DNA of 64,000 nucleotides, from the NCBI GenBank assembly GCA_033675265.1, contig JAUJYZ010000272.1, positions 134,501-198,500 on the forward strand, in the 5' to 3' direction. The translations under genes were made by a program, and so were the position numbers. Below are positions 55,001 to 61,000 of the stretch, piece by piece; position 1 is the stretch's first letter; each line of letters starts with the position of its first letter. The notes under the pieces were generated by a model, which had not been told where the DNA came from, made no database searches, and worked only from the letters and a program-made list of their open reading frames with translations. This stretch comes from Actinostola sp. cb2023. Its lineage: Eukaryota; Cnidaria; Anthozoa; Actiniaria; Actinostolidae.

Positions 55001-58000
55001 ATGCAACTGGTCGATAAATTCCAGATTGTCGCGGTGAGTCCGCATATGTCATGCAACTGGTCGATAAATTCCAGATTGTCGCGGTGAGTCCGCATATGTC
55101 ATGCAACTGGTCGGTAAATTCCAGATTGTCGCGGTGAGTCCGCATATATGTCATGCAACTGGTCGGTAAATTCCAGATTGTCGCGGTGAGTCCGCATATG
55201 TCATGCAACTGGTCGTCGATAAATTCCAGATTGTCGCGGTGAGTCCGCATATGTCATGCAACTGGTCGGTAAATTCCAGATTGTCGCGGTGAGTCCGCAT
55301 ATGCCATGCAACTGGTCGATAAATTCCAGATTGTCGCGGTGAGTCCGCATATGTCATGCAACTGGTCGGTAAATTCCAGATTGTCGCGGTGAGTCCGCAT
55401 ATGTCATGCAACTGGTCGATAAATTCCAGATTGTCGCGGTGAGTCCGCATATGTCATGCAACTGGTCGGTAAATTCCAGATTGTCGCGGTGAGTCCGCAT
55501 ATGTCATGCAACTGGTCGGTAAATTCCAGATTGTCGCGGTGAGTCCGCATATGTCATGCAACTGGTCGGTAAATTCCAGATTGTCGCGGTGAGTCCGCAT
55601 ATGTCATGCAACTGGTCGATAAATTCCAGATTGTCGCGGTGAGTCCGCATATGTCATGCAACTGGTCGATAAATTCCAGATTGTCGCGGTGAGTCCGCAT
55701 ATGTCATGCAACTGGTCGGTAAATTCCAGATTGTCGCGGTGAGTCCGCATATGTCATGCAACTGGTCGGTAAATTCCAGATTGTCGCGGTGAGTCCGCAT
55801 CGTCATGCAACTAGTCGGTCAATTCCAGATTGTTGTGGTCGCTCGTGCAGTAAATTCCAGTTTGTCGCGGTTGGTCCGCCTGTTTACTGGTCGTTTCAGT
55901 TATGGTTGCGATCGATCCGCCTGTTTTGTGGTCGCTCCAGTTGTTGTCGTGGTTGGTCCGCCTGTTTACTGGTCGTTTCATGTCTGTTATTTCATATGTC
56001 GGTGCCTTATATGGATGGGCTTACGTGATTTATTCCTTTAACAGTGGCCATTGGAGCGCGAATTTAGGGACAATGTTTATTGTAGCTCCGCTGCATGCTT
56101 GATGCTTTAGGTCATTATTGGCTGGAGTCTTTGTTAGTCATTAAAATTTGTTTACCATGAAATGTTGGGTTGCCATAGTGATTTAAGCATGTTTTATTTA
56201 TTTATTTATATTTATCTCTTTCCCTCCTCCACCACTCTGGGTGTAACAGTGCTTTTGCAGGGGAGTCTTATTCCCTTTCGGTTCCACCGAACGGCAGGGC
56301 TGTTATCCCCTGGGCTGGCCCTTTCCCCACCCTAATGTTCCCTTAGTCCCCTGACTGGGAGATCTCGAAGTGCTTAACTTTAATCCTTTGACGGTTACTG
56401 TCCGAACCCTCGTGGGTCACCTGGGAAGGGCCTGCTCTCACTTTATCCCATCGGATAACAGAAAATAATTGATCATGCTATTCGTGTTGAAGCAAAAACT
56501 CATCTGTGCTTTTCTTTAGTTTTGAGTGTTGGGTTTCTGCGGCCCGTTCTTTCGGTTGAGTCTTCTTTGTTGCCGGCTACCAATTTCCCCATAACTTAGC
56601 CATTATAGAACAGGGAAGACCGCTTAGAATAGGATACTATTCGGCCATTTGAAAATGTATGTTGTCAAAATGTCTACGGATGAATAAATGAATATGGAGA
56701 AAGTCCCAATGCCCTTTGCGGTCGTCAGCTTCTTGCTTGTTGCTTTCGGCGGGGACAACGATTTTTGGGGACTAACGAAAGGTTGTTTTGGAATATTCGC
56801 AACATCACGTGTATATTTGTTTTGCGCAAGTGGAACCCAGAGTCAATAGATTCAGTAGAAGTATAATACTTATACAGAAGATTTCAGGTACAGTTTATTT
56901 CAGCGCTTGTAAAAGTGCAAATGTGCAAATAAATAATGTGGTTTTCCGAGGTGGACCTTTCTGCAATTAGGTGTATATAGTGGAATACACATATACAGTT
57001 TAATTAATACATGTATAATAGACCCAAGCGGAAGTAGGTCGCGGCTTAGGATCGTGAACGCGCATGTTAGACGAGCTCGACCCATATATAGCTAATTGCA
57101 TTATCGTTGTCGGTTGAAAATCATAAATCATAGAAGCTGAGACCGCAAGGATGGATGGGAAATCAGTTCATGACCCACATTACATACAGATATATTCAAT
57201 GTTCTCGTAGTTTTGAAGGTATATGAGCTATTTAACTAAGATCCTACAAGTCTGCATAAAAAGGTCGATGATTTGACGGTGTTATTTGAGAGTTTTAATT
57301 TCCCAGAATTCCTTTTGGTCATAGCTTTCATGATTTTCAACCCGACAATGATTATGCAATTAGCTATAAACGAATTAGACGTCTTGTAGCCTATTGACGT
57401 CATCTATATAAGTAAAAACCAACCGCAAAGTTACATCGATCTATCACACAGATGGTGAGTTCTACGAGGACATGACTCAAGTGTTGGAGGACGAAACTGA
57501 TCCCGATGGCTACATGAAGACTAGTCATACAGGAGACTTTATAAGTGACGAAATCTATACAGATATGGAATCAGGAAGCGACCGGTACGTAGACGTTGCC
57601 TCACAACAAACTGATCCCGATGGCTACATGAATACTAGTCATACAGGAAACGTTATAAGTGAAGAAATCTATACAGATATGGAATCAGAAAGCGACCGGT
57701 ACGTGGACGTTGCCTCACAACAAACTGATCCCGATGGCTACATGAATACTAGTCATACAGGAAACGTTATAAGTGACGAAATCTATACAGATATGGAATC
57801 AGAAAGCGACCGGTACGTGGACGTTGCCTCACAACAAACTGATCCCGATGGCTACATGAATACTAGTCATACAGGAAACGTTATAAGTGAAGAAATCTAT
57901 ACAGATATGGAATCAGGAAGCAACCAGTACGTGGACGTTGCCTCACAACAAACTGACGGCGGGTATGTCAGTACATCCCATGTAAGTGTTGGTGATGACG

Positions 58001-61000
58001 AAGAACTGTACATTAATCTGAACGAAGACCCAGAAGAATTATATGAACCAATGACAGATAACACTGGAGAAGGTACTACATTGTCTAGTAGAATATATAG
58101 AAGTATAATTATGCAGGTGAATATGAAGACGCGGGCGCTCTGATTGGTCAAGAATTACGTCATATGTTGCAATAGAATACATGTATAATAGAAAAGTGAT
58201 ATACGAAAATGGCCGTGTGTCGATGTTTATCCGAAAATAAAGGGAAAATGCATTCCCAAAAGTACAACAAAATTCGGCCAGAATCGAGAGTTTCTGTAAA
58301 ATGAGGAGAAAACATAAAAATAGGCCCGCAATGCGAGCACGTGGCTACTATAATATGGTACAATACAATATTATTACATGCAGCTCTTGTAAGATTTCAT
58401 TGTATGACAAGAAAAAAGCTTCAAATATTTTGCTATCGCCAGACGCTCAGCCACTCGACTGAGGTGTTGGGCTGCAGTAATCACTCCGCTGGAATATCTC
58501 CACCGAGACCGTCAAAAAAACCTGAACATTTATTTACGAACAAACACTTGACCCAGTGCTGGAAAGCTGTGCCTGGTTAACGGTTCAAAATAGCACAAAA
58601 TCATAGTAAATATAGAGTGAAAACTTACTTCAACCAAAAGCACATGGAAGAAACGTGGCCAAAACGTTTCAATCGATAATAAGTCGACAATCAGACGAGA
58701 GATTACGACTATTCAAAACATGTCGCTGAGCGCCGATGTTGTCGCCGATAAACCCGAAAATCACGAAAATTATCGCCAATAAACTCGATAATCACGAAAA
58801 TACAAAAGTCCATTGAAGAAACATCGAGCGAACATAGGCCTTCGGTGTCGATCGAAGAATTCCGATCACTGTGCGATTCCGAACACTATCCGAAGATTAG
58901 GACTACTTACGGACGGACTTACAACTCGATAGCATAGTGGCTACATATCCATATATGGAGATAGTAGACACAAAAAACGATAACCAGGACAATTTGTGCA
59001 GCTACACGAAGACCTTGCCATTCTCGTCTTCTTAGAAGAGAGTAGCCACTATGCCATCGAGTTTGTAAGTCCGTCCGTAAGTTCTCCAAATGTTCGGATA
59101 GTGTACGTTCGGAACCGATTGATATCAATCGAACACTGGGCGACCATATCCCCGCCGTTTTTCCGGTGGTCTTCGATATATTTAATATATGTTTTGTTTT
59201 CGGGTATTCCACAGGAAGCCCGAGTAATTTAAGGTGGTGTCCGCATAATGATGACCGGTTGGCCGTATTTTTTAACTCGCTCGCTCCGCGTTAATATTGC
59301 TTGGATTTTATTGTGCTTAACAAAAATACTAATTCAACTATTCTGCTTTTGGACGGTGTATTCAAAATTATCATTGTAAGCCGCGTTTATGAATGCCAGC
59401 TGATATTCAAAAGACACTATTTTCACTAAAACTGCTGGCAAGCGTTAATTAATTAATCCCTCGTACGATTTTTTTTTAAGTTCGTGAACGGCCTTTTAAG
59501 GTCCCTCCCTAGTAATGTTCTGACGAAATCACCAGTTCATATTTTTGTTGTCAATATTTGGACCTGTCGGTTGTTACGTGATTTCGGCTCAAACTATTTT
59601 CAATTTTCACTGTCAGAGGACAGTGCGACATATTTGATCGCTAAGGAAGGTTTTATTGTTGAATATTAAAGACAATAGAGTAGTAGAGTAGTTCCATCAA
59701 GGGCCTGTGCTGTGAAATGTGCCCTCGGAAACTGGATGCTCCTCTGAACTGCTTTCGTAGCTTCTATGATTTATGATTTCAAACCGACAACGATTATGCA
59801 ATTGGGTGTATACATGCAGTCATTCTCAAAACAGTTTCTGCTTCATTCTTTGCGAATTTCTGACTGCATTGCCATTTCCGAATGCACCTACGCCCTTATC
59901 TAAAATGAATTTAAAATATGTACTGGGCTTCTTGTGGAATGCCCGAATTAATTATCATTTTATTAATAAACTTTAGATAATAATAATAAATTATCCTTTG
60001 ATTAATAAACTTTAGATAATAATAATAAATTATCATTTTATTAATAAACTTTAGAATGAACGAACGAATGAATGAACGAACGAACGAATCAGTGAACGAA
60101 CGAACCAACAAACGAATGAATTAGTGAATGAACGAATAAGTGAATGAACGAATAAATGAACGAATGAACAATAAAACTGAGAAAATAATCAAAAAGTAAT
60201 TCGATTAGCAGCCTTTCCAAAAGAGCTAAACTCCCTGTACCATCTGTCATTCAAGAGGAGAATACTAAAGAGCTGTTTTATTCTAGGCCGCTATGCTACG
60301 TATGACTACCCGTCTAACCTACCAGTCTCTGCAATGTATCCTTCTGGACGCTCTGTCAGTATATCTCAAAGGAAAAAACCGGGTACTGCAATCATAATCC
60401 TTTACAATCATTATTATCATATACAGTTATTCTCACACTAAAATAACTGTCATATCGATTGTGTTGTATTTGGGAATGGAATTAAAGGCTTTGGAAATTT
60501 TCCATATTCGCAAAGAAAGAATATTCCATGGACAAAGTTTTAGAGAATGACTGCATGTAATAATAATAAGAATTCATTATTTAGAGAAGGAATATTGCTT
60601 TAAATAACACTGGTTATCAGGAAGTTTTGCTAAGCTATTGATATCTATTTTCAGATATAATTAAGGGTTCATCACAACAGGTATGTACTGACTCCTTTTG
60701 ACAAACTACAGCATTGCTAGATTGGTAATCCATTCCAATCCCTTCCATTCCAATCCATTCCATTCCCACCCAAACCATTCCAATCCATTCTCATCCAATC
60801 CATTCCAATCCATTCAATCCATTCCATTCCCACCCACCCAAACCATTCCAATCCATTCTCATCCAATCCAATCCAATCCAATCCAATCCAATCCAATCCA
60901 ATCCAATCCATTCCAATCCATTCCAATCCATTCCAATCCATTCCAATCCATTCCAATCCATTCCAATCCATTCCAATCCATTCCAATCCATTCCAATCCA

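Follow-up and report, generated by a model that had tools for sequence, protein, structure and literature searches.

The question raised by this locus is how the docking sites of a signalling adaptor may be copied within a single exon, and whether such copying implies more signal. A 64,000-nucleotide (nt) stretch of the genome of Actinostola sp. cb2023 (Actiniaria by taxonomy; assembly GCA_033675265.1, contig JAUJYZ010000272.1, positions 134,501 to 198,500), called the window below, contains on its + strand a gene that is classified from its sequence as a cnidarian Dof/PI3KAP adaptor, a relative of vertebrate BCAP/PIK3AP1 and BANK1. Exon 7 of this gene (57452-58072) carries four tandem, in-frame units of 114 nt at 57496-57951, each coding for 38 residues. 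It is considered probable that the array belongs to a multivalent PI3K docking tail of the adaptor, renewed by a coding minisatellite. The array and its flank are composed as follows.

57496..57609, + strand: repeat unit 1, with YMKT, YTDM and YVDV (Tandem Repeats Finder, in-register reading)
57610..57723, + strand: repeat unit 2, with YMNT, YTDM and YVDV (same evidence)
57724..57837, + strand: repeat unit 3, with YMNT, YTDM and YVDV (same evidence)
57838..57951, + strand: repeat unit 4, with YMNT, YTDM and YVDV (same evidence)
57952..58072, + strand: probable diverged fifth unit, with GYVST, YINL and YEPM and the tyrosine spacing nearly kept (protein z 4.1, 0.2% of shuffles)

Tandem Repeats Finder placed the array at 57494-57956, with a period of 114, 4.1 copies and 96% matches. 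DNA identity between units ranged from 93.9 to 99.1% in the six pairwise comparisons, or 1-7 differences per 114 nt, and so small a divergence suggests that the units were copied, or homogenised, recently. The segments EIYTDM and YVDV are present in all four units and GYMNT in units 2-4, unit 1 having K (YMKT) at the position of N. Variation between units is confined to 8 of the 114 sites, 7 nonsynonymous and 1 silent, and no change alters the tyrosines or the Met of YTDM. The exon is open in a single frame, the others holding 13 and 19 stops. High-identity, in-frame tandem copies, as looked for in polymorphic coding minisatellites, are therefore present. The likeness of the fifth unit to the other four was reached by 0.2% of 2,000 shuffles at the protein level, and its DNA kinship with units 1-4 (from 57952 on) was at chance level only. 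A preliminary description of this DNA had reported four such units with these motifs in one exon, near-identical and so either young or homogenised; both points are borne out by the repeat finder and the pairwise comparison, and the interval it gave corresponds to the whole exon with its AG/GT borders. No published account of the array was found among the titles and abstract beginnings listed in searches of the open-licence PMC literature.

Eight YxxM motifs occur in the gene model, the number already counted in the preliminary description: YETM and YTRM (exon 51284-51431), YEDM, four copies of YTDM, and YEPM, the four other than YTDM lying outside units 1-4. They stand at residues 251, 266, 297, 328, 366, 404, 442 and 490, with spacings of 15, 31, 31, 38, 38, 38 and 48. 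When the tail coded by exons 6-8 was shuffled, the mean was 1.07 and 0 of 20,000 shuffles reached 8. Even with a single unit retained, 5 motifs were observed against 0.59 (fraction 0.0001). The docking tyrosines by which DBB adaptors are recognised appear to be supplied by this YxxM tail. For the YxN motif, all units together gave 5 against 1.66 (fraction 0.017).

The host gene was reconstructed from tblastn with relatives, sequence reading and a frame check. Its eight exons join without a stop into 531 residues in a continuous frame, with AG/GT junctions throughout (donor only for exon 1). Nematostella vectensis PIK3AP1-like P0002 and the public Actinostola protein P0001 (QZH41_016273) serve as references in the list.

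39994..40051, + strand: coding part of exon 1, phase out 1 (like the start of P0002, 50% over 18 amino acids, E 2.1; donor GTATTG, frame fits)
41009..41055, + strand: exon 2, phase 1 to 0 (AG acceptor, GTAAGT donor, frame fits; resembles FIHVIPDKIRYDS of P0002)
44391..44535, + strand: exon 3, first part of DBB (tblastn with P0002, E 1.2e-13; covered by P0001 from MEVRAK onwards)
46437..46715, + strand: exon 4, second part of DBB, PF14545 (Pfam DBB 1.4e-14; tblastn with P0002, 5.3e-21)
49700..49899, + strand: exon 5, ankyrin-like region (tblastn with P0002, 1.3e-16; ankyrin profile and fold matches)
51284..51431, + strand: exon 6, docking tail with YETM, YTRM and YINL (present in P0001; GYINLNLW aligns with GYINIQLW of P0002; frame fits)
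57452..58072, + strand: exon 7, docking array with YEDM, four units and, in the diverged fifth, YINL and YEPM (621 nt, phase 1-1)
57981..57982, + strand: alternative donor junction CAT/GTAAGT, which gives the public end SHLL when joined to 58384, one of two candidate acceptors (58384, 59761)
60287..60382, + strand: exon 8, phase 1 in, absent from the public model (tblastn with P0002, 68% over 25 columns, E 0.002)

The DBB domain (Dof, BCAP, BANK) lies upstream of the array and was detected in a Pfam scan of the + strand of the window (E 1.4e-14) as well as on P0001 (E 1.4e-19), both scores being above the Pfam cut-off. The family profile also matched the solved PIK3AP1 DBB structure 6sws (E 2.8e-16), and ankyrin repeats after DBB were indicated by family profile and fold matches. 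Exon 1 starts just before DBB. A TIR domain gave no match at E 0.5 on the + strand of 15501-60002, a search that small exon pieces can escape. Cnidarian Dof is described, in the relevant part of PMC7260276, with DBB, ankyrin and SH2 sites and with TIR absent. Because no TIR was found and cnidarian Dof is without it, the gene is assigned to cnidarian Dof/PI3KAP only, and not to TIR-type BCAP/BANK1. A receptor tyrosine kinase and a scavenger receptor had also been considered as host gene and were abandoned on finding DBB.

With joined exons 3-7 as the query, at least 3 proteins were obtained from 7994 scored candidates, namely P0001 and the Nematostella and Orbicella PIK3AP1-like proteins; P0001 was the best among the matches listed (100% identity, 87% of query). 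The Nematostella protein as the query returned at least 9 matches from 7991 candidates, including itself, Acropora, Montipora, spider, fish and three coral-like proteins. For further anemone orthologues, a protein search of 787 candidates gave P0001 alone. Solved relatives sought with the single sequence of P0001 were limited to two matches (E 0.68 and 0.77), which were not accepted as kin, and the solved DBB was not among the matches listed in the fold search, where the best 50 fall on residues 83-182. The predicted structure of P0001 has low confidence over residues 184-406, suggesting that the tyrosine tail is probably disordered. For the serine- and proline-rich C-terminal part seen in Nematostella and corals, 60383-64000 yielded one weak match (E 0.63); the gene probably extends past the window end.

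The junctions of P0001 are those of the gene model from exon 3 to exon 7. The public model seems truncated, starting inside exon 3 (in DBB) and ending inside exon 7, so that it appears to lack the first two exons and the beginning of the third (44391-44480), as well as the last part of exon 7 together with exon 8 (57982-60382). Weak similarity together with frame argues for exons 1 and 2. Exon 7 is preceded by AG before 57452 and followed by GT at 58073; since it measures 621 nt with phase 1 at both ends, skipping it would preserve the frame. Two introns of the gene hold repeats of their own: a 50-nt minisatellite of ~42 copies with 97% matches just before exon 7 (53738-55833), and, by eye, a long near-perfect inverted repeat between AAT microsatellites after exon 4 (46840-47265). 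A further minisatellite lies downstream at 62883-63490, with a 77-nt period, 7.9 copies and 95% matches.

A different end of the main transcript would remove part of the tail. If the donor at 57981 were joined to 58384, translation would stop after SHLL, without most of the fifth unit and all that follows. GTAAGT is a strong donor by consensus, the 57981 donor has this sequence, and the junction reproduces P0001. Nevertheless, exon 8 would be lost by this route, although its sequence is similar to that of Nematostella and its frame agrees with the 58072 donor and not with that at 57981. The public annotation was moreover built from homology and de novo prediction, and RNA is not mentioned in the relevant part of PMC10803348. 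Such an early end as the main form is judged unlikely.

Comparison with relatives shows what the array adds. YxxM counts are 5 in Nematostella, 7 in Orbicella, 7 in Acropora muricata, 8 in Montipora and 8, 7 and 8 in the three coral-like proteins; a spider protein has 1 and two fish BANK1 forms have 2 and 1. The motif is enriched in the 7 other anthozoan proteins found (5-8 against shuffle means of 0.44-0.85). Since six coral or coral-like relatives carry 7-8 YxxM without such an array, the array leaves the total no higher than in corals, and the earlier idea that the number is a striking excess is not sustained. Comparison of unit number in related species, which the preliminary description had proposed, was possible with Nematostella, which has one unit-like stretch and no near-identical array.

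P0002 shares with the Actinostola gene DBB, the ankyrin region, the lack of TIR, a YxxM-rich tail, a YIN(L/I) site and a YATYD/YAIYD segment, and differs in its 5 YxxM and its single unit-like stretch. The unit and this stretch have the same three tyrosines with insertions between them (z 5.6, 0 of 2,000 shuffles), and the residue aligned to N of YMNT is H; the best internal self-match of P0002 is not significant (0.11 of shuffles). Similarly, the coral Dof/PI3KAP proteins (Orbicella P0003, Acropora P0005, Montipora P0008 and coral-like P0004, P0006 and P0007) share DBB, an ankyrin-like part and a tyrosine tail with 7-8 YxxM, whereas their internal docking-segment repeats are diverged rather than near-identical. 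In a test of ten tails, uncorrected for that number, these repeats were reached by 0 of 300 shuffles in P0005 and P0006, 1 of 300 in P0003 and P0004, and fractions of 0.05 and 0.04 in P0007 and P0008; P0004-P0006 are close kin and thus not independent. The spider (0.71) and fish (0.08) tails fell below that level. The Actinostola tail with a single unit kept still showed the self-match to its fifth unit (2 of 300 shuffles). Because one-unit and coral tails show internal repeats, docking segments may have duplicated more than once in Anthozoa, and the Actinostola array is, judged by its identity, the youngest docking-segment repeat among the tails compared. An imperfect duplication in the Acropora-type tails (P0005, P0006) has an offset of 37 residues, near the 38-residue unit. 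A common period of 37-38 residues was considered and rejected, as the tyrosine spacings differ.

As Nematostella has one unit-like stretch, the expansion probably took place after the Actinostola-Nematostella split. One unit would then be ancestral, loss in Nematostella being the alternative. Both direction and date lean on a single other anemone, as no further anemone orthologue was among the matches listed. Sites 54 and 80 are in four-gamete conflict. This hints at exchange between units but was not accepted as demonstrating gene conversion, since a plain tree with repeat mutation yields it in 7% of simulations. No signal of purifying selection between units was detected.

We propose that the DBB and ankyrin parts would place the adaptor in an activated receptor tyrosine-kinase complex, where kinases would phosphorylate its C-terminal tail. 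The YxxM sites, YTDM included, may then load PI3K p85, and YMNT and YINL could take Grb2/Drk. YVDV suits SH2 proteins that prefer hydrophobic residues at +1 and +3, and could take one of the Shp2/Csw or PLC-gamma type. An ancestral single unit, recently tandem-duplicated to four, would provide extra p85 sites and higher multivalency. In insulin receptor substrate (IRS) proteins, YxxM recruits PI3K and YxN recruits Grb2 (PMC10526421). BCAP binds p85 through YxxM, with a phosphorylation-dependent N-SH2 contact, and binds Grb2 too (PMC6937578), and fly Dof couples FGF receptors, with proposed sites for Csw/Shp2, Grb2/Drk and Src64B (PMC3634451).

Several observations weigh against this proposal. 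With a single unit retained, YxN is not enriched (2 against 1.10, fraction 0.30), so that the Grb2-type count is not above chance. Grb2 is reported to bind BCAP via SH3, not SH2 (PMC6937578), and for fly Dof the binding of PI3K is termed unconfirmed in the passage concerned of PMC3634451. p85 is reported to bind paired phosphotyrosines 10-30 residues apart (PMC6937578); the YTDM-YTDM distance of 38 residues exceeds this range, and only 1 of the 7 tail spacings (15) falls inside it, two being 31. The units are therefore expected to work mainly as separate avidity-raising sites and not as a two-site clamp. The nonsynonymous share of 7/8 against 77% expected fits neutrality. P0001 ends too early to include the fifth unit's YINL and YEPM. 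As 8 YxxM do not exceed the coral numbers, a signal gain is not implied. The docking role named in the preliminary description is thus supported at the level of motifs in its PI3K half, given the enriched p85-type YxxM and a gene of the PI3K-adaptor family; the Grb2 half is weakened by the unenriched YxN, the N limited to units 2-4 and the H of Nematostella.

A neutral origin of the array deserves the most attention among the alternatives. Slippage or unequal exchange in a length-tolerant, disordered stretch would produce a coding minisatellite that leaves signalling unaffected, which agrees with the proposal made here save for its signal-gain step. Tandem repeats form 17% of the window and arrays with a period of at least 30 form 11%, several being equally uniform (50 nt x 42, 97%; 77 nt x 8, 95%). 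The differences between units are consistent with neutrality, and relatives attain similar YxxM numbers without an array. On the other hand, none of the four units has lost the frame, the tyrosines or the +3 Met, and the family motif is part of the unit, although in so young an array the time for motif loss may have been too short. The neutral origin is accordingly a real possibility, held at somewhat less than even.

It could also be asked whether copy number and near-identity were distorted during assembly. The genome derives from one specimen with 0.9% heterozygosity, sequenced from a PacBio 20-kb library with Illumina correction, polished with Racon and pilon and reduced with Redundans (PMC10803348). 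Polishing noisy long reads could sharpen near-identity, as short reads may be misplaced among such units, and heterozygous-copy reduction would hide allele differences. However, a 20-kb library should span an exon of 0.6 kb, 8 differing sites are kept between units, and the frame is unbroken through the array, which makes a distortion of this kind very improbable.

The multivalent docking tail renewed by a coding minisatellite may be extended to a copy-number dial, in which ongoing unequal exchange would yield alleles with varied numbers of p85, Grb2 and YVDV units and thereby varied PI3K and Ras output, while anthozoan members hold 5-8 sites by turnover of docking motifs via internal duplication. 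This extension is regarded as doubtful. What the locus offers is an example of whole three-tyrosine modules of likely docking sites copied by tandem duplication inside one exon, while the YxxM number stays in a similar range across the anthozoan relatives found. It represents a natural test of the number and spacing of SH2 sites against PI3K output, and of the turnover of short docking motifs.

Elsewhere in the window, an open frame of 326 codons at 15888-16865 (+ strand) contains three CCCH zinc-finger stretches (zf-CCCH_10, E 8.3e-14) and presumably resembles ZC3H10-type proteins. Near-identical open frames at 26422-26985 (+ strand) and 30833-31363 (- strand) form an inverted pair of repeated elements. 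The open frame of 202 codons at 20105-20710 (- strand) resembles the C-terminal part of a non-long-terminal-repeat retrotransposon protein.

Among known systems, Helicobacter CagA offers an analogy alone, being an unrelated protein with repeatable tyrosine docking motifs in a disordered tail. The vertebrate and arthropod sequences compared here were a spider protein and two fish BANK1 forms. From the literature, vertebrate BCAP/PIK3AP1 and BANK1 and Drosophila Dof share with the Actinostola gene the plan of a DBB and ankyrin adaptor with SH2 docking tyrosines (PMC6937578, PMC3634451). Unlike the Actinostola gene, most bilaterian DBB adaptors are described with TIR in the relevant part of PMC7260276.

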